In this document: piece after piece, positions 1,941-53,663 of the stretch
How the letters are laid out: each line of letters starts with the position of its first letter
How positions within the stretch are numbered: position 1 is the first letter of the stretch
Origin: Kitasatospora fiedleri
GTDB taxonomy: Bacteria > Actinomycetota > Actinomycetes > Streptomycetales > Streptomycetaceae
Direction of reading: 5' to 3'
Length of the DNA stretch: 64,000 nt
Assembly (NCBI RefSeq): GCF_948472415.1
Contig: NZ_OX419519.1
Coordinates: 3,844,001-3,908,000 of the forward strand
Program-made: the position numbers and the translations under genes
The notes under the pieces: generated by a model
Database searches by the model: none
What the model saw: the letters and a program-made list of their open reading frames with translations, nothing else
What the model was told of the DNA's origin: nothing

Positions 1941-3440
1941 TCAGCCCGAAAGTCGGACCGGTCGTTCCAGTCGGACCCCGGCCCGCTCCAGCCAGGCGCG
2001 CAGCGGACCGTCCTGCCCGTCCTCGACCGCGCGGGCCACCGCGGGGGCCAGCTCCGCCCGGGGCGCGGCCGGGCAGACCAGGACCGGCCCGTCCAGCCAG
2101 TCCAGGCCGGGGGTGGCGGTGCCCGCGTCCACCGCGGCGCAGCAGACGGTGGCGGTCAGGTGCTCGACCAGCAGGTCCCGGCCGCTGCGCACGGGGGGCA
2201 GCGGGGGCGCGACCCGGGCGGCGCGCGCCACCTGGCCGGCCAGCGCGGCGGCCAGTTCCTCGGCCTCGCCGGCGGCCAGCCGGGCCAGCAGCTTGTCCAG
2301 CGCCGGGCCGGTCTGCGGGCGGTCCTCGCCGAGCGCGGCCTGGAGCGCGGCGGCCTGGGCGCGCCAGCCCCGGTCGACGACCTGCCGCGGGTAGTCCTCC
2401 CAGTCGAGCGGCTGCCAGCCGTCGGCCGGCTCCTCGTGCAGCAGTTCGGCGGCCAGCCGGGAGACCCGGGTGTCGACCAGGCCGGGCTCCTCCAGCAGGT
2501 CGCAGGCGGGGCGGTCGCCGAGCCGGTTGCCGTAGTCGTCGGCCAGCCGGTCGCGGCGGGAGAGCTCGGTGAGCGCGGAGACCACGCCGGCGTTCAGGTG
2601 CGCGGGGTGCAGGCCGAGCCGCCAGGCGGGCAGCGCGACCCGGGTGAGCAGCCGGTCCCAGCCCGCGTAGGCCAGGCCGACCTGGGCCTGGGCGGCGATC
2701 CGCGGCCCGTAGTCGACGGCCCGGGCCTGCTCGGAGGCCCAGGCGGCCGCGGCGTGCTCCAGTTCGGCGGAGTGCTCGCGGCAGGCGCCGAGCAGTCGGC
2801 GGTCGACCGGGCCGGTCAGTGCGGCGGGGCCGCGGCGGCGCTCGCCCAGTGCGGCGTCCAGGGTGCGCAGCCAGCGGCGGGCGGCGGCGATGTCGGGGTC
2901 GGCGGCCGCGGCGGTGCCGGCCACCACGGGGGCCAGCAGGGCGCGCAGTTCGGCGGCCCGCATCCACCACAGGAAGGGGGAGCCGATCACCAGCACCGGT
3001 GCGGCGGGGCCGGTGCCGCGGCCGGGCCGGCCGGCCGGGTGCGGCTCCTCCAGCCAGCTGTCGCAGTCGGGGGTGAGCGCGATCGCGGCGGGCGCCGGGA
3101 CGTCCAGCCGCTCGGCGAGCTCCTCGATCAGCCGGTACAGCTCGGGGGCGTCCGCCCGGGCCAGCGGCACCGCGGGGGTGACCGGTGGGACGGCCCGGCG
3201 GTGCGCCGCGGCGACCAGCGCGGCCAGTGCCAGGGTCAGCGCGGCGACCGCGCAGACCGCCCAGCGGATGCCGTCCCAGAGCGGGGCGTCCGGCGACCCG
3301 GGGGCGCCTATCCGTCCGGTGAACCGCCCGGCCAACAGCACCACCGCGCAGGCGGCGGGCAGCGCGGCGGCGGCCACGGCCCGTCCGCGCAGACGCAGGA
3401 CGGCCTGGGCTCGTGCGCGTGCGGTGTCCACTGCAGCCAT
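1941..3440 (-). CDS. Membrane protein resembling M48 peptidases but lacking the HExxH site
   Basis: This 499-residue protein has two hydrophobic segments near the N terminus (about residues 24-42 and 60-80), then a soluble domain. The arrangement recalls M48 (HtpX/Ste24-like) proteins. A stretch LVIGSPFLWWMRAAELRALL corresponds to the strand and helix that precede the zinc-binding HELGH in true peptidases. Here the following residues are APVVAGTAA, with no HExxH, so protease activity is not expected. The rest is Ala/Leu/Arg-rich and helical. It lies between purC and purD on the same strand, a position held by a conserved membrane protein in Streptomyces. The M48 relationship is my inference from pattern, not a search result; otherwise it should be called a conserved membrane protein. 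Confidence 0.65.
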   Translation of the reverse strand: MAAVDTARARAQAVLRLRGRAVAAAALPAACAVVLLAGRFTGRIGAPGSPDAPLWDGIRWAVCAVAALTLALAALVAAAHRRAVPPVTPAVPLARADAPELYRLIEELAERLDVPAPAAIALTPDCDSWLEEPHPAGRPGRGTGPAAPVLVIGSPFLWWMRAAELRALLAPVVAGTAAAADPDIAAARRWLRTLDAALGERRRGPAALTGPVDRRLLGACREHSAELEHAAAAWASEQARAVDYGPRIAAQAQVGLAYAGWDRLLTRVALPAWRLGLHPAHLNAGVVSALTELSRRDRLADDYGNRLGDRPACDLLEEPGLVDTRVSRLAAELLHEEPADGWQPLDWEDYPRQVVDRGWRAQAAALQAALGEDRPQTGPALDKLLARLAAGEAEELAAALAGQVARAARVAPPLPPVRSGRDLLVEHLTATVCCAAVDAGTATPGLDWLDGPVLVCPAAPRAELAPAVARAVEDGQDGPLRAWLERAGVRLERPVRLSG

Positions 3441-3925
3441 CGCCGCGGCACCCCCTTCGCAGCCGACTCGACTCGATCAATTCCGGTACGGGAAGCGGCG
3501 GATGCCGAACCCGGTGGTGCGACTCGCGTGGCGCTCTCCTGCCAGTCTCGACGCCCCGGTGCGGGCGGGTGTTCCGGAAGTCCGGCGATTCCACCCGTCC
3601 TGGTGACACCGTGTCGGGGCGCGCCACCGCTCCCAGCATCCCCCCGGCGCGTCGGCGCGACGAGCCGCGTCCGCGCCGGTGCCCCCGCCCCGGCGCGATG
3701 CAGCGCACCCTAAGGCCCGCGCTCGCGCCCCGTCAGCAGGATGCCCGCGCCATCACCCGAAGGGCTGGTTTTCCGGTCGCGGCGCTGACCGCGACGACCT
3801 CGGGAAACGCCGCGGGGCGCTGCGTCCGGACGGGTCGGTCCGGGCGCAGCGCCCCGCGGGCGGGTCCGGCCGCCGAGCGGCTGCCGGGACGGCTGCCGGG
3901 CGGCAACCGAACGGGTACCGGGCCG
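3441..3925. other. 485-base gap without a convincing gene
   Basis: GC-rich spacer between the ends of two minus-strand genes. It holds the purD terminator hairpin (3810-3859) and, at its left end, the promoter and leader of the M48-like gene. Reading frames here have poor codon bias and no recognisable motif. Confidence 0.6.
3810..3859 (-). terminator. Long hairpin downstream of purD
   Basis: Arms 3810-3824 and 3845-3859 are perfect 15-base complements, and a further CCGGAC/GTCCGG pairing lies inside. It begins 67 bases past the purD stop. There is no T-run, as is usual in Streptomyces. Confidence 0.6.
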
Positions 3926-35220: not shown

Positions 35221-36846
35221 TCAGGTCACATCGCGAGTCATGTCGACAAAGCGGGAATAGTGCCCCTGGAAAGCGACGGTAATGGTCGCAGTTGGGCCGT
35301 TTCGGTGCTTTGCCACGATCAGGTCGGCTTCACCGGCCCGCGGCGACTCCTTCTCGTACGCGTCCTCGCGGTGCAGCAGGATCACCATGTCGGCGTCCTG
35401 CTCGATCGAGCCGGACTCGCGCAGGTCGGAGACCATCGGCTTCTTGTCGGTGCGCTGCTCGGGGCCGCGGTTCAGCTGGGAGAGCGCGATCACCGGAAGC
35501 TCCAGCTCCTTCGCCAGCAGCTTCAGGTTCCGGGACATGTCCGAGACCTCCTGCTGCCGGCTCTCCGCCCGTCGCGACCCGCCGGACTGCATCAGCTGCA
35601 GGTAGTCGATCACCACCAGCCGCAGGTCGTTGCGCTGCTTGAGCCGCCGGCACTTGGCCCGGATCTCCATCATCGACAGGTTCGGCGAGTCGTCGATGTA
35701 CAGCGGCGCCGCACTCACCTCGGGCATCCGCCGGGCCACCCGCGTCCAGTCGTCGTCCGTCATGTTCCCCGACCGCATGTGGTGCAGCGCCACCCGTGCC
35801 TCCGCCGACAGCAGGCGCATGGCGATCTCGTTGCGGCCCATTTCGAGCGAGAAGATCACGCTCGGCAGGTTGTTGTGGATCGAACAGGCCCGCGCGAAGT
35901 CCAGCGCGAGCGTGGACTTGCCCATGGCCGGGCGGGCCGCGATGACGATCATCTGGCCGGGGTGGAGGCCGTTGGTGAGCTGGTCGAAGTCGGCGAAGCC
36001 GGTGGGGACGCCGGACATCTGGCCGGAGCGGGAGCCGATGGCCTCGATCTCGTCGAGGGCGCCTTCCATGATGTCGGCGAGGGGGGCGTAGTCCTCGTTG
36101 GTGCGCTGTTCGGTGACGGCGTAGATCTCGGCCTGGGCGGCGTTGACGATGTCGTCGACGTCGCCCTCGGCGGCGTAGCCCATGCCGGCGATGCGGGTGC
36201 CGGCCTCGACCAGGCGGCGCAGGACGGCGCGTTCGTGGACGATCTCGGCGTAGTACTCGGCGTTGGCCGCGGTGGGGACGGAGTTGACCAGGGTGTGCAG
36301 GTAGGAGGGGCCGCCGACGCGGGTGAGCTCGCCGCGCTTGGTGAGTTCGCCGGCCACGGTGATCGGGTCGGCGGGCTCGCCGCGGGCGTAGAGGTCGAGG
36401 ATCGCGCCGTGGATGAGTTCGTGGGCGGGGCGGTAGTAGTCGGCGGGCTTGAGCACCTCGACGACGTCCGCGATGGCGTCCTTGGAGAGGAGCATGCCGC
36501 CGAGCACGGACTGTTCGGCCGCCAGGTCCTGCGGGGGGACGCGTTCGAAGCCCTCGCCGCCGAAGCCGCCCTCGCGGTCGCCGTCCCGGTCGCGGCGCTC
36601 GCCCTTGGCCGGGAAGCGGTCGCCGCCCTTGCCGCCGTCCCGCCGCTGGGACCCTCCGCCGGAGCCCCCGGAGCCGCCCGAGCCGCCGGAGCCCTCGCGG
36701 CCGGCCGGGGCGCCGGAGCGGCGGGAGACCGGGAGGCGGTCGCCCGGGACGTCGGGGAAGGCGTCCAGCGGGAAGGCGTCGTCGGACGGCTGCCAGTCGT
36801 CCTCCGGCGGCGGGGCGTCGTGGTCTTCGTACTGGGGGCCGGTCAC
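35221..36846 (-). CDS. dnaB: Replicative DNA helicase DnaB
   Basis: The hexameric helicase that unwinds DNA at the replication fork. This 541-residue form has an actinobacterial N-terminal extension of about 100 residues, Gly/Ser/Arg-rich and probably disordered. The DnaB N domain follows (PPQDLAAEQSVLGGMLLSKDAI, about 104-210), then the RecA-like motor with Walker A ARPAMGKSTLALDFA, Walker B RLVVIDYLQLM, and LSQLNRGPEQRTDKKPMVSDLRESGSIEQDADMV (sensor/arginine-finger region). No intein is present, although DnaB is a frequent intein host. GTG 36846 has GGGGAA upstream. DnaA-box-like 9-mers lie 170-450 bases upstream. Confidence 0.97.
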   Translation of the reverse strand: MTGPQYEDHDAPPPEDDWQPSDDAFPLDAFPDVPGDRLPVSRRSGAPAGREGSGGSGGSGGSGGGSQRRDGGKGGDRFPAKGERRDRDGDREGGFGGEGFERVPPQDLAAEQSVLGGMLLSKDAIADVVEVLKPADYYRPAHELIHGAILDLYARGEPADPITVAGELTKRGELTRVGGPSYLHTLVNSVPTAANAEYYAEIVHERAVLRRLVEAGTRIAGMGYAAEGDVDDIVNAAQAEIYAVTEQRTNEDYAPLADIMEGALDEIEAIGSRSGQMSGVPTGFADFDQLTNGLHPGQMIVIAARPAMGKSTLALDFARACSIHNNLPSVIFSLEMGRNEIAMRLLSAEARVALHHMRSGNMTDDDWTRVARRMPEVSAAPLYIDDSPNLSMMEIRAKCRRLKQRNDLRLVVIDYLQLMQSGGSRRAESRQQEVSDMSRNLKLLAKELELPVIALSQLNRGPEQRTDKKPMVSDLRESGSIEQDADMVILLHREDAYEKESPRAGEADLIVAKHRNGPTATITVAFQGHYSRFVDMTRDVT

Positions 36847-48411: not shown

Positions 48412-49073
48412 ATGAGCCGACGCTCCGGCGTCCTCGAATTCGCCGTCCTCGGCCTGCTCCACGACGCGCCCATGCACGGGTACGAGCTGCGCAAGCGGCT
48501 CAACGTCCTGCTGGGCTCGTTCCGGGCCTTCTCGTACGGAACGCTCTACCCCTGCCTGAAGAGCCTGGTCGCCCAGGGCTTCCTGGTGGAGGACAACCCG
48601 GACGTCGAGTACGTCCCGGCCACCGCGCTCAACGGCAAGCGGTCGAAGATCGTCTACCGGCTCTCCCCGAGGGCAAGCAGCGCTTCGAGGAACTGCTCGC
48701 CGACACCGGGCCGGAGGCCTGGGAGGACGAGCACTTCGGTGTCCGGTTCGCGTTCTTCGGCCAGACCGACCGGGCGGTCCGGATGCGCGTGCTGGAAGGC
48801 CGCCGCAGCCGGCTGGAGGAGCGGCTGGAGCGGATGCGCAGCTCCGTCTCCCGCACCCGCGAGCGTTTCGACGACTACACCCTCGAACTCCAGCGCCACG
48901 GCCTGGAGTCCGTGGAACGCGAGGTCCGGTGGCTCAACGAGCTGATCGAGACCGAGCGGGCCACCAGAACCGGACGCGGCACCGCGTCCCCGCACACTTC
49001 GGACGGCCGTGGTCCGGCCGACGGGTCCTCCGACCCGCCCGGGCCACCGTACGACCGCCCGGGGCGCTCCTGA
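48412..49073 (+). pseudogene. PadR-family regulator with a one-base frameshift
   Basis: The N-terminal winged helix (residues 1-85, SGVLEFAVLGLLHDAPMHGYELRKRLNVLLGSFRAFSYGTLYPCLKSL) is a textbook PadR domain, preceded by AAGGAGG at correct spacing before ATG 48412. Reading in that frame turns to nonsense after IVYRL (about 48663). In the +1-compensated frame the sequence continues EGKQRFEELLADTGPEAWEDE and a helical tail with LEGRRSRLEERLERM, ending at 49073. Adding one C to the run CCCC at 48665-48668 restores one 220-residue protein. It is either a true inactivating mutation or a base-call error in a C-run. The divergent PBP gene and its own promoter are likely targets. Confidence 0.85.
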
Positions 49074-49218
49074 CCGGAGCGCTGCACCACCGCGCCGGCC
49101 CCGCCGCCCGCGGCGAGGCGTGGGCGCCCCGTGCGCCCGATCAGACAGTCAGAACAGATGTGGAACGAGGTCGCCGCCACAGCACGGCGGGCCTCATGAG
49201 ATTCAGGGAGCAACCGGA

Positions 49219-50301
49219 ATGGGTTCGGTTCGCGTAGCCATCGTCGGCGTGGGCAACTGCGCCGCCTCGCTGGTGCAGGGTGTCGAGTACTACAAGGACG
49301 CCGACCCGGCCGGTAAGGTCCCCGGCCTGATGCACGTCCAGTTCGGCGACTACCACGTCAAGGACGTCGACTTCGTCGCCGCGTTCGACGTGGACGCCAA
49401 GAAGGTCGGCTTCGACCTGGCCGACGCCATCGGCAACAGCGAGAACAACACCATCAAGATCTGCGACGTGCCGCCGACCGGCGTCACCGTGCAGCGCGGC
49501 CACACCCTCGACGGCCTGGGCAAGTACTACCGCGAGACCATCGAGGAGTCCGATGAGGCTCCGGTCGACGTCGTGCAGATCCTCAAGGACCGCCAGGTCG
49601 ACGTCCTGGTCTGCTACCTGCCGGTCGGCTCCGAGGACGCCGCCAAGTTCTACGCCCAGTGCGCCATCGACGCCAAGGTCGCCTTCGTGAACGCCCTCCC
49701 GGTGTTCATCGCCGGCACCAAGGAGTGGGCCGACAAGTTCACCGAGGCCGGTGTCCCGATCGTCGGCGACGACATCAAGTCGCAGGTCGGCGCCACCATC
49801 ACGCACCGCGTGATGGCGAAGCTCTTCGAGGACCGCGGCGTCGTCCTGGAGCGCACCATGCAGCTGAACGTCGGCGGCAACATGGACTTCAAGAACATGC
49901 TCGAGCGCGAGCGCCTGGAGTCCAAGAAGATCTCCAAGACCCAGGCCGTCACCTCGCAGATCCGCGACCGTGACCTGGGCGCCAAGAACGTCCACATCGG
50001 CCCGTCCGACTACGTCGCGTGGCTCGACGACCGCAAGTGGGCGTACGTCCGCCTCGAGGGCCGCGCGTTCGGCGACGTCCCGCTGAACCTCGAGTACAAG
50101 CTCGAGGTCTGGGACTCCCCGAACTCGGCCGGTGTCATCATCGACGCCGTGCGCGCCGCGAAGATCGCCAAGGACCGCGGCATCGGCGGCCCGATCCTCT
50201 CCGCGTCCTCGTACTTCATGAAGTCCCCGCCGGTGCAGTACTTCGACGACGAGGCCAAGGAGAACGTCGAGAAGTTCATCCGCGGTGAGGTCGAGCGCTG
50301 A
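49219..50301 (+). CDS. ino1: Inositol-3-phosphate synthase
   Basis: Converts glucose-6-phosphate to 1L-myo-inositol-1-phosphate with NAD, the entry to mycothiol and phosphatidylinositol synthesis in actinobacteria. 360 residues. The Rossmann motif [18 protein letters not shown] is at the N terminus; [11 protein letters not shown] and [23 protein letters not shown] follow, and [27 protein letters not shown] is the catalytic block with conserved lysines. It is the short, actinobacterial/archaeal form. Codon use is strikingly biased to GTC, GCC, AAG and GAG, suggesting high expression. ATG 49219 follows CAGGGAG. The mycothiol-dependent-isomerase-like gene at 9200 is consistent with mycothiol use in this organism. 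Confidence 0.95.
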
Positions 50302-50388: not shown

Positions 50389-52206
50389 TCAGGACCAGGC
50401 CGCGTTCCAGGTGGCCGGGCCGACGACGCCGTCCACGCCGAGCCCGTGGCGCTGCTGGAAGGACCGGCAGACCTGGGCGGAGGCGGGCCCGTACCAGCCG
50501 TCCGCGGTGATCGACCAGCCGCGGTCGGCCAGCCGGCGCTGCCACGTCAGGACGTCGTCCCCGTGCAGCATCGGCGTCTGCACCTTGAGGTACCGGCCGG
50601 GCCAGCGCGGCGGGCCGGACGGCGGGGTGGTGGCCTGCCCCGAGGTGCGGGCCGCCGGGACGCCGCCGAGCGCCGGGTCCGCGGAGACGGTCCCCTCCGG
50701 GAAGGCCGGGACCCCGTAGCCGTACGGCGAGCCGGGGCCGCGGCGCGGGCGGGACTTGAGGTAGACGCCGTCGCCCTCGGTGGAGCCGCTGTCGTTGGTG
50801 TTGTGGGTGGGGATGAAGTCGTCGGTGACGAACAGGCGGGAGGGCGCGGACACCGCGATGCACTGCACCTCTTCGTCGCGCACGTACTCGACGGAGACGA
50901 CCCGGCGGGCCCACGCGGCGTTCCGCGGGACGAAGCGCTCAACCTTGCGGGGCGTCCTGAACGGGTTGAAGTGCGGCATGTCGACGTTCTGCACGCGGTA
51001 CGCGTCTTTGGCAGGGGTGCGGTTCGGCTGCCGGGGCGAGGTGTGGTGCGCGTTGCGCTCGACGTTCACCGCGGCCCGGCCGCCGAGCGAGCGGACGAGT
51101 TCCTGAACGTCCCTGGCCAGGCGCTCGGAGGCCGAGGTGAACTCGATCCGCCCCCGGGCGTCGATCGTCCCGCCGGTGTCCATCAGTCCTTGCAGGAGCG
51201 CCAGCCGGTCCTTGATGCCGGTCCTGCGGTAGCGGGCGGGCAGGAACGCGTGCGGGGCCTCGACGCCCATCAGGCCGAGCGCGCGCAGTTCCTCGATCAG
51301 CTGGTTCCCGCCCCGGCCTCCGGTTCCGATGATCCGCCAGTTCCCTTCCACCGCGCGCTCGTTGGCGATGTGCGGAACCAGCCGGTGACCGTCCGGGAGG
51401 ATCGAGCGCAGTTCGGCGAGGACGTCGGGGTCGGTGTGGGGGAAATGCAGTCCACCGCCGCTGGTGCCGCCGGCCCCGACGAGCAGTCCGAGCAGGTACG
51501 GGTCGATCGGGAGCGGCTCACCGGTCTGCCGGTACTCGACGGGTTCGAGAAGGGGGACGCGCACCCGGGAACCCGGACGGGAGACCAGGGCCGCGAGTTC
51601 CAGGGTCGTGACCACCCTCGGGCGGGCCCGGCCGTCGATCCCGATCTGCCAGAGGTGCTCCTCGCACGCCTCGGCAGCGGACCCGTCCTGGAGGGTGATC
51701 CGGTGCACGGGGCGGATGCCCTTGGGGTGGACGCCGGTGACCCGGGAGGGCCGCCCCTCCGGGTCCACGACGGGGTCTCCGACCCGCAGGTCGCCCATCC
51801 TCCGGTAGCCGGTGGGGGTGAGCACCCCGGCGTGCAGCGGGAGGGCGTTCCCCTCCACGGTCCGGATGGTGTCGGCGTCGTAGGCGACCACGACGCCGGT
51901 GTGGCTGCCGCCGCCGGGGCCGAGGTAGAAGGGGCCGCCGAGGACCGGGTACTCGGACCAGCGGTGGCGGTCGCGCCACCAGGCCACGGCGGTGAGGCAG
52001 GAGGCGGTCATCGGCCAGAGCCCGTCCATGCCGGCCCGGTGGGCGGCCCAGGCCTCGAAGGTGGCGCACCAGGGCTGGCCGTCGGACCACTCCAGGCCGG
52101 GGGTCTCGGTGCTGTAGCGCTGTCGGTTGTTCCAGGTGCCGTCGGGGTCTCGGCCCTCGTGGCGGCCGACCTGGCCGAGCAGAAGGGCGGCGAACTCGTC
52201 ACGCAT
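50389..52206 (-). CDS. CHAP-domain cell-wall hydrolase with C-terminal peptidoglycan-binding domain, split by an intein
   Basis: The 605-residue precursor encodes two proteins. The host part (residues 1-120 plus 470-605) is 256 residues. Its CHAP amidase/endopeptidase domain has C47 (QPWCATFEAW), H102 (GGGSHTGVVV) and the third catalytic site TVEGN at 116-120. After a Gly/Pro linker comes a PG_binding_1 domain (about 540-602, HGDDVLTWQRRL ... GVVGPATWNAAW). The middle 349 residues are an intein (own entry). Splicing would rejoin EGN to TNDSGS and restore the usual CHAP sequence. There is no signal peptide, as in phage endolysins and some Streptomyces phage-derived hydrolases. ATG 52206 follows GGGAGG. 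Confidence 0.88.
   Translation of the reverse strand: MRDEFAALLLGQVGRHEGRDPDGTWNNRQRYSTETPGLEWSDGQPWCATFEAWAAHRAGMDGLWPMTASCLTAVAWWRDRHRWSEYPVLGGPFYLGPGGGSHTGVVVAYDADTIRTVEGNALPLHAGVLTPTGYRRMGDLRVGDPVVDPEGRPSRVTGVHPKGIRPVHRITLQDGSAAEACEEHLWQIGIDGRARPRVVTTLELAALVSRPGSRVRVPLLEPVEYRQTGEPLPIDPYLLGLLVGAGGTSGGGLHFPHTDPDVLAELRSILPDGHRLVPHIANERAVEGNWRIIGTGGRGGNQLIEELRALGLMGVEAPHAFLPARYRRTGIKDRLALLQGLMDTGGTIDARGRIEFTSASERLARDVQELVRSLGGRAAVNVERNAHHTSPRQPNRTPAKDAYRVQNVDMPHFNPFRTPRKVERFVPRNAAWARRVVSVEYVRDEEVQCIAVSAPSRLFVTDDFIPTHNTNDSGSTEGDGVYLKSRPRRGPGSPYGYGVPAFPEGTVSADPALGGVPAARTSGQATTPPSGPPRWPGRYLKVQTPMLHGDDVLTWQRRLADRGWSITADGWYGPASAQVCRSFQQRHGLGVDGVVGPATWNAAWS
50800..51846 (-). mobile_element. Class 3-type intein with degenerate LAGLIDADG endonuclease, inserted in the CHAP gene
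   Basis: Precursor residues 121-469 (349 aa). The N terminus ALPLHAGVLTPTGYRRMGDL is a HINT block A, but starts with Ala rather than Cys/Ser. Block B DGSAAEACEEHLWQIG has H184 and W186. Block F reads EEVQCIAV with C449 where other inteins have Asp. Block G FIPTHN ends T467-H468-N469, followed by extein Thr470. Ala1 plus W, C and T at these points is the class 3 signature. Endonuclease motifs are LLGLLVGAGG (238-247; catalytic Asp replaced by A245) and LLQGLMDTGGT (337-347; catalytic Asp replaced by G345). The endonuclease is probably dead while splicing residues look intact. Base composition is slightly less GC-rich than the exteins. Confidence 0.88.
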
Positions 52207-52328
52207 GGGAGCCTCCCGTTGTTCCGAGGTGGTTCTTCCCTCCCGGGCTGGTCAACGAGCCTGCGACACGCAGGTCATCGGTAGTGCGGAAGCACGCGGG
52301 GGCGTCCGGCCGCCGCACTGCCGACGGA

Positions 52329-52344
52329 TGTTTCACGTGGAACC
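52329..52344. promoter_or_regulatory. parS-like ParB-binding site 3
   Basis: TGTTTCACGTGGAACC between the divergent CHAP and MFS genes. The left arm is exactly canonical; the right has two changes. Confidence 0.65.
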
Positions 52345-52370
52345 GACGGACCTCGTGGCACCCTTGGCGG

Positions 52371-53663
52371 GTGATCACCGAACGGCCCCCGCGGGAGGCC
52401 CCCCTGCTCGGGCTGCTGCGCGGCCGAGGTTTCCGGCAACTGCTGACCGTCCGGCTGCTCTCGCAGCTCTCGGACGGGGCGTTCCAGGCCGCGCTGGCCG
52501 CCTCGGTGGTCTTCTCGCCGGAGAAGCAGTCCTCCCCCGCCGACATCGCCGCGATCGCGGCGGCGACGCTGCTGCCGTTCTCGGTGGTGGGCCCGTTCGC
52601 CGGGGTGCTGCTGGACCGCTGGCGGCGCCGGCAGGTGCTGCTGACGGGCAATCTGATCCGCGCGGTGCTCGGCCTGGCGACGGCGGCCCTGCTGCTGGGC
52701 GAGGCGCCGAAGTGGGCGTTCATCTCGGCGGCGCTGGTGGTGACGGCGATCAACCGGTTCATCCTGGCGGGCCTCTCGGCCTCGCTGCCCCGGGTGGTGG
52801 ACCCCGCACGGCTGGTCACCGCCAACGCGGTGTCGCCGACCCTGGGCGCGGTCGCGGCGGCCACCGGTGCGGGCGCCGGTTTCCTGGTGCACCTGGTGGT
52901 GCCGGCCGGCCCGCGCGCGGACGCCCTGACGGTGACGCTGTCCGGGCTGCTGTACCTGTCCGCCGCCCTGGCCGCGCAGCGCATCCCGGTCGACCGGCTG
53001 GGCCCCGACCAGCTGGACGGACTCCCCCCGCTGCGCGAGACGCTGGCCGCCACCTGGTACGACCTGCTGGCCGGGCTGCGGCACCTGGTGCGGGACTGCC
53101 GTCCGGCGGTGCGCGCGCTGGCCGCGGCGACGCTGACCAAGTTCTGCTTCGGCGTGCTGACCGTCGTGGTGCTGATGCTGTCCCGGTACACCTTCAACAG
53201 CGCCTCGGACGAGACCGGCGGCCTGGCCAGCCTGGGCTGGGCGGTCGCGATGTCGGCGGCGGGCATGTTCCTGGCCGCGGTGGTCAGCCCGTGGTGCACC
53301 CGCAGGCTCGGCCTGAACGGCTGGGTGACGACCTGTCTGGTCGGCTCCGCGGTGCTCGTCCCGGCGCTCGGCCTGCCCTTCCGGGAGGTCCCGGCGATGG
53401 CCGCGGCGCTGCTGCTCGGCCTGACCACCCAGAGCACCAAGATCTGCGCCGACACCCTGGTGCAGGAGTCGGTGGAGGACGAGTACCGCGGCCGGGTGTT
53501 CGCCGTCTACGACGTCCTGGTGAACGTGGCGTTCGTCGCCGCGGCCGCCGTCACCGCCCTGGTCCTGCCGCTGAACGGCCGTTCGGCGACGGTGATGCTG
53601 GGCCTGGCGGCGCTGTACGCGCTCGGCGCGGCGCTGTACTTCCGCTCCTCCCGCCGCCCCTGA
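52371..53663 (+). CDS. MFS transporter
   Basis: A 430-residue major facilitator with about 12 hydrophobic helices. Helix 1 follows LRGRGFRQLLTVRLLSQLSDGAFQAAL, and the loop 2-3 signature is GVLLDRWRRRQVLLTGN. The second half contains WGVAMSAAG-type segments and STKICADTLVQESVEDEYRGRVFAVYDVLVN, a block typical of the EntS/macrolide-efflux-like MFS branch. In Streptomyces an MFS gene occupies this place between ino1 and cca. GTG 52371 (MITERPPREAP) is the chosen start; no clear ribosome binding site precedes it. A parS-like site lies 27 bases upstream, close enough that ParB could affect its transcription. Confidence 0.87.
   Translation: MITERPPREAPLLGLLRGRGFRQLLTVRLLSQLSDGAFQAALAASVVFSPEKQSSPADIAAIAAATLLPFSVVGPFAGVLLDRWRRRQVLLTGNLIRAVLGLATAALLLGEAPKWAFISAALVVTAINRFILAGLSASLPRVVDPARLVTANAVSPTLGAVAAATGAGAGFLVHLVVPAGPRADALTVTLSGLLYLSAALAAQRIPVDRLGPDQLDGLPPLRETLAATWYDLLAGLRHLVRDCRPAVRALAAATLTKFCFGVLTVVVLMLSRYTFNSASDETGGLASLGWAVAMSAAGMFLAAVVSPWCTRRLGLNGWVTTCLVGSAVLVPALGLPFREVPAMAAALLLGLTTQSTKICADTLVQESVEDEYRGRVFAVYDVLVNVAFVAAAAVTALVLPLNGRSATVMLGLAALYALGAALYFRSSRRP

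Follow-up and report, generated by a model that had tools for sequence, protein, structure and literature searches.

A predicted class 3 intein in the active-site motif of CHAP-type lysins from Streptomycetaceae and uncultured phages

A lysin gene of Kitasatospora fiedleri carries an insert of 349 codons in the middle of its predicted active-site motif, raising the questions of what this insert is, how it came to lie there, and whether it controls the enzyme that it divides. The gene lies in a stretch of 64,000 nucleotides of contig NZ_OX419519.1 (hereafter the window, meaning the whole stretch analyzed), for which an initial annotation had proposed a class 3 intein at residues 121-469, splitting a CHAP cell-wall hydrolase after E-G-N. 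These residues correspond exactly to 51846 down to 50800 in a minus-strand frame that is open throughout its 605 codons and gene-like in its third-position GC (0.95), and each residue that had been singled out (A121, W186, C449, T467-H468-N469, and T470) is found in the translation. The parts of the precursor and its flanking genes are as follows.

50389..52206, minus strand: whole precursor open reading frame, 605 amino acids (coordinates take in the stop codon)
51847..52206, minus strand: N-extein, residues 1-120, the CHAP-type catalytic part, with C47, H102, E118, and N120 invariant in all 16 aligned lysins; the Pfam CHAP profile passes its cut-off in relatives only
50800..51846, minus strand: predicted class 3 intein, residues 121-469, 349 amino acids, with matches in the PDB and in predicted fold, missing from eight syntenic orthologues
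51649..51657, minus strand: block B H184-L185-W186, contributing the predicted active-site His and Trp of class 3, invariant in 17 inteins
50947..51516, minus strand: LAGLIDADG homing endonuclease domain, approximately residues 231-420 (borders by eye), with A245 and G345 in place of the catalytic acids
50860..50862, minus strand: C449, predicted block F catalytic cysteine, from the alignment of class 3 inteins
50800..50808, minus strand: THN, residues 467-469, the Thr of the WCT triplet, penultimate His, and terminal Asn, from the alignment and the definition in the accessible text of PMC5050341
50797..50799, minus strand: T470, predicted +1 nucleophile of the C-extein
50392..50799, minus strand: C-extein, residues 470-605, the end of the catalytic domain and PG_binding_1 (residues 549-602, Pfam E 2.2e-14)
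49009..50301, plus strand: flanking myo-inositol-1-phosphate synthase reading frame, a locus marker (start set mechanically)
52284..53663, plus strand: flanking MFS transporter reading frame, a locus marker

The host protein belongs to the PHROG 9589 endolysin family, as judged from its uninterrupted orthologue L026 (E 8e-62). CHAP enzymes have a catalytic set of Cys, His, and Glu or Asn. The proposal that the host is a CHAP hydrolase holds in its catalytic residues, fold, and relatives, but not in a direct profile match: when the suggested comparison of the exteins with the CHAP profile was made, the window protein, its N-extein, and L026 had no Pfam CHAP match at E 1. The orthologue L025 scored 22.6 bits, under the cut-off of 26, and scores at or above it were obtained for the relatives L002 (35.9) and L118 (33.7) and for all three lysins tested from viral contigs (P0002, 29.5; L160, 29.2; L154, 26.1). 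The NCBIfam model TIGR02594 matches the window protein below its family cut-off (E 0.00088). The predicted structure of L026 has a mean pLDDT of 62, with ten-residue blocks at 67-92 over residues 1-120 and below 50 after residue 170. No Foldseek match to it had an E value under 0.001 (best 0.024), and its first six rows are CHAP-type endolysins. VIA-align placed it with NlpC/P60 proteins (Z up to 11.9) and the endolysins LysIME-EF1 (11.3) and PlyGRCS (10.4), consistent with a papain-like NlpC/P60-CHAP fold, which by itself cannot tell CHAP from NlpC/P60. We therefore assign the window protein to the CHAP type because its relatives and its fold support this.

Several observations connect this chromosomal gene with phages. 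The same genome encodes a second lysin of the family, without an intein, inside a prophage. Of six neighboring reading frames compared, five belong by their matches to phage connector, tail, or tape-measure families; the other one matches a PHROG of unknown function. Kitasatospora-type lysins filed as viral in IMG/VR (L036-L038) have an empty site reading EGN/SN (the slash marks the insertion point). CHAP lysins of Streptomyces phages fall in the same PHROG 9589 family, with 95 phage records matching L026, and the best 60 of these 95 match in one piece across the junction, that is, without an intein. We infer that the chromosomal lysin gene descends from a phage lysin. Separately, Kitasatospora sp. 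CB01950 carries a chromosomal lysin (L028) and a prophage-type lysin (L032) with very similar N-terminal parts, suggesting exchange. No segment resembling a signal peptide was found at the start of the precursor in 19-residue hydropathy windows (best 0.02 for windows starting from 15 residues before the start codon to 45 after it, and 0.81 for those starting within the first 80 precursor residues); on a host protein of endolysin type, it is thus not obvious that a secreted hydrolase is being switched.

The insert itself has the features of a class 3 intein. Its ends match gp41-1 (6riz, E 2.9e-8) and the mycobacterial DnaB class 3 inteins 6rix, 6bs8, and 6riy (E 1.1e-7 to 3.5e-7) in a phmmer search of the PDB, and residues 335-383 match Pfam LAGLIDADG_3 (E 2e-7), a domain that the initial annotation did not mention. 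AlphaFold predicts a Hint fold for the intein (pLDDT 88.8, pTM 0.89), and the model superposes in VIA-align on the DnaB intein 6bs8 (Z 20.2, rmsd 1.4 Å, 123 residues) and on PI-SceI (Z 27.1, 334 residues). Intein position 1 is Ala121 rather than Cys or Ser, as in class 3, and W186, C449, and T467 align with class 3 inteins as the WCT triplet, which the accessible text of PMC5050341 defines as Trp at B:12, Cys at F:4, and Thr at G:5. In the class 3 DnaB intein treated in the available part of PMC6195587, this threonine is Thr137, adjoining His138 and Asn139. Thr470, previously counted among the class 3 marks, is present, but as the +1 nucleophile; the WCT threonine is T467. In intein numbering, A1, H64, W66, C329, T347, H348, and N349 are kept in all five bacterial CHAP inteins and in all four distinct complete viral ones. 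The mycobacterial DnaB inteins 6bs8, 6rix, and 6riy share the WCT triplet and, within 1.4-1.9 Å, the Hint fold of the window intein, but they are mini-inteins without an endonuclease in a replicative helicase, whereas the window copy has an endonuclease and a lysin as host, and they have Asp at the block B position occupied here by C181. Matches in the PDB, residue set, and predicted fold all agree with the class originally proposed, and in every feature open to computational testing the insert conforms to the known class 3 type.

Comparison with other Kitasatospora genomes bears on the history of the insertion. A query spanning the junction found matches (at E 1e-14) in 20 of 70 genomes of the genus: four match through the junction (the window genome G000, G019, G022, and G137), eight encode a close but uninterrupted orthologue, and eight have only more distant CHAP matches ending at or near the junction, the four of these that were read all being uninterrupted. 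All 12 close orthologues, four occupied and eight empty, sit between inositol-phosphate synthase and MFS genes (the named records L025-L031 duplicate some of these 12 genomes). Because eight genomes have an uninterrupted gene at this very locus, the insert is not a product of chance. The empty orthologues are 256 amino acids long in seven cases, exactly 605 minus 349, and 254 in one. Their junctions, read as DNA in five genomes and as protein in the other three, are EGN/TN in five, EAN/TN in two, and EGN/SN in one.

Occupied and empty alleles occur even within one species. The site is empty in G116, which belongs to the same species as the window strain, with 98-99% extein identity and a difference of 1.7% in N-extein DNA. 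These two alleles differ little to either side of the insertion point, with one stretch about 1.8 kb upstream reaching 11%, so that co-conversion indicates neither donor nor direction. Among the occupied strains, exteins and intein have diverged from the window to similar extents at the DNA level (N-extein 86.1-94.2%, intein 82.0-93.5%, and C-extein 84.4-93.7% identity). Occupied and empty alleles are interleaved in the extein tree, in which six of 12 branch supports are below 80. Such a pattern would be expected if an old intein had been lost repeatedly, and equally if the intein had moved together with its flanks.

The initial annotation had noted no known intein in a peptidoglycan hydrolase, but the window does not stand alone: CHAP proteins of a second genus and of six viral contigs are interrupted by an intein at this site too. 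Among 249 genomes of the family, a fifth occupied bacterial lysin was found in G061, of another genus, the only occupied genome among three of that genus; its lysin is about half identical to that of the window, and its endonuclease region is shortened. Six IMG/VR contigs encode a CHAP lysin with an intein 46-50% identical to that of the window at EGN/TN, one of them cut at the contig end. These share the site and a related intein, but their lysins are divergent from the window's and their GC content is lower (0.42-0.46 in four contig pieces). In seven further viral lysins, which share 87-99% identity with that of L153, no intein is present. Of nine neighboring reading frames compared on the viral contigs, three are tail-fibre-like (in L154 and L156), two match nucleotide-metabolism or phosphoesterase families, and four have no match (in L153 and L160), so L153 and L160 are taken as viral from their classification in IMG/VR. 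A search for the host of the viral contigs gave no DNA match for L160.

In a tree of 49 inteins (all at least 230 amino acids long, and without L158 and L142, which run off the ends of their contigs), all ten complete CHAP inteins group in a single clade (support 100/99), divided into a bacterial half (95/86) and a viral half (100/100), the viral row L155 being identical to L154. The next wider clade (88/88) adds RecG inteins and four viral ATPase-type rows. The tree program warned that the viral CHAP rows have an odd letter composition and that long branches are joined in other parts of the tree. The RecG class 3 inteins of other genomes of the family (L047-L058), presumably Streptomyces, are 38-43% identical to the window intein by blastp and share with it Ala1, HLW, Cys, THN, the +1 Thr, and LAGLIDADG, but they interrupt a P-loop helicase at GSGK/T and stand outside the CHAP clade (100/99). 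Pfam confirmed the host as RecG in L048 and as PhoH in L060; the other members are named from their flanking motif. Judged from these sequences, the CHAP inteins constitute a lysin-specific lineage common to phages and bacteria, for which the simplest reading would be one origin at the CHAP site followed by spread, in either direction.

Wider searches yielded no further members. None of the phage records covers 80% of the query (best 60 of 623 and best 60 of 556), and none of the plasmid matches listed (best 30 of 36 records) is a CHAP intein. Among 391 genomes of the order, 118 of them matching, none but the window has a good match across the junction; G154 matches over residues 3-77 in this search and had no full intein match in the family search. 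No further CHAP intein was found in 396 genomes of the phylum, 17 of them matching, where the 14 loci parsed had PhoH (13) or RecG (one) flanks by eye, a count that omits L177, L184, L169, and L170, the last two being the same places as the RecG-type L047 and L050. Two other viral loci carry class 3 inteins. At the end of contig L142 (2833-3468), an intein 44% identical to that of the window follows GGDN. The interrupted protein resembles the Pfam T4 gp19 tail tube family weakly over its first 56 residues (E 0.0016, below cut-off) and had no PHROG match; it is possibly another non-ATPase host. L126 has two (1052-2089 and 2501-3625) in one SNF2-type helicase frame.

Two further ideas about origin were set aside. 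The dnaB gene of G022 (L120, 6474-9341), about 13.5 kb from its lysin gene, contains a different and distant intein. Descent of the CHAP intein from this neighbor was rejected, as the dnaB intein falls far from the CHAP clade in the tree; the window dnaB (35221-36846) encodes 541 amino acids with both DnaB domains whole and no intein. A likeness between the CHAP site GGCAAC/ACC and the P-loop site GGCAAG/ACC as homing targets was dropped, about half of 24 positions being alike by eye against a single RecG site.

Rates of change suggest how the parts of the element have been maintained. In the six pairs of four alleles, with domain borders set by eye, dN/dS was 0.17-0.31 for the Hint N part, 0.04-0.22 for the Hint C part, 0.33-0.85 for the endonuclease region, 0.14-0.43 for the N-extein, and 0.16-0.35 for the C-extein. 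On two pairs with no shared branch in the intein tree, changes in the Hint region lie far below neutral (p 1.6e-8), and those in the endonuclease are also below neutral overall (p 7e-5). On these pairs, with the same borders by eye, the endonuclease is relaxed relative to Hint (Fisher p 0.032), and no difference from the exteins was seen for the endonuclease (p 0.22) or for Hint (p 0.28). At the two LAGLIDADG catalytic positions, where an active enzyme has acids, the window copy has A245 and G345; the pair is D and D in L006 and L025, D and G in L007, and E and G in L118, and both are acidic in the viral L153, L154, and L157, with Lys at the first in L156. The window endonuclease is thus very probably dead, and since this region is still constrained overall and behaves like the exteins, its decay in the window copy would be recent. 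The splicing parts are under purifying selection, and the picture drawn from these alleles is of a homing cycle in which the endonuclease is dying out and splicing is preserved.

Might the insert have a function other than its own propagation, or no function at all? Any intein in an active site will look like a switch, and here the insertion does split the active-site motif between N120 and T470, so that slow or blocked splicing, for example by oxidation of C449, could hold the lysin inactive until a signal arrives. The available text of PMC6195587 describes a class 3 DnaB intein that is inhibited when its catalytic Cys is oxidized, and a second cysteine, C181, aligns with the Asp of the block B DxxH motif of that intein. 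C181 had been a candidate for a lysin-specific cysteine, being invariant in four aligned CHAP inteins, yet Cys occupies this position in 15 of 17 aligned class 3 inteins, many of them fetched by a pattern containing Cys, and hence it is not lysin-specific. Moreover, empty alleles are the commoner state (eight of 12), so such a switch is dispensable, and we consider it improbable. The bolder version, in which a lysin-specialized intein lineage acts as a timer that keeps the precursor inert in phages and bacterium until splicing, possibly redox-dependent, renders it lytic, seems to us just as doubtful.

The loss of the endonuclease acids, together with one published class 3 intein that is a pseudogene (accessible text of PMC3196547), could instead indicate a decayed, non-splicing intein and a dead lysin gene in the window strain; with all splicing residues kept, the frame open, and dN/dS well below 1 for the Hint region and both exteins across four alleles, we think this very unlikely. 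The least probable reading, to which we give hardly any weight, is a HINT domain that cleaves without splicing, as in bacterial intein-like domains or hedgehog-like modules. These share the fold, and BIL and hedgehog structures do match the intein model at lower Z (15.7-17.9), but the insert has an endonuclease domain, a THN end, and a +1 Thr, and it occupies a conserved enzyme motif at a site that is polymorphic and exactly empty in other alleles, all of which are features of a splicing mobile intein. The intein tree contained inteins only and so has no bearing on this point.

We therefore favor, with high confidence, the explanation that a LAGLIDADG-bearing class 3 intein invaded the E-G-N/T motif of an endolysin-type CHAP hydrolase and spread by homing, and that its endonuclease is very probably dead in the window copy with splicing kept. 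Sequence, predicted fold, the exact empty site, phylogeny, and selection are the basis for this account, from which splicing, past homing, and the cutting of peptidoglycan by the spliced enzyme are inferred. By analogy with established class 3 work, C449 in block F would attack the N120-A121 bond, the N-extein would then pass to T470, and cyclization of N469 would release the 38 kDa intein and restore a hydrolase of 256 residues (about 27.7 kDa). The element would have spread through phages and Streptomycetaceae as a lysin-specific lineage homing into empty alleles, and splicing would be kept in the window copy because a broken lysin is selected against.

In conclusion, it is the kind of host enzyme and the lysin lineage running through phages and bacteria that are new here; the mechanism is already known. 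According to the accessible text of PMC5050341, all mycobacteriophage intein hosts and 84.9% of bacterial ones bind nucleic acids, and the available portion of PMC3314691 reports no intein or intron in 224 mycobacteriophage endolysins. Among titles and abstract openings, a scope outside which most subscription papers fall, none was found to describe an intein within a lysin or other peptidoglycan hydrolase, and the accessible portions of PMC7497331, PMC5526547, PMC10638138, PMC3322345, PMC12403621, PMC6145125, and PMC9957025 contain no lysin intein. The class 3 lineage described here interrupts a peptidoglycan hydrolase in its active-site motif; it occurs in uncultured phages as well as in two bacterial genera, and a single species has both occupied and empty alleles. 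The CHAP inteins thus offer a natural system for studying intein exchange between phages and bacteria, as well as the homing cycle, with endonucleases apparently both live and dead. They also present a zymogen-like lysin whose activation is open to direct testing, and if the timer reading were true, inteins would gain a role in the timing of lysis.
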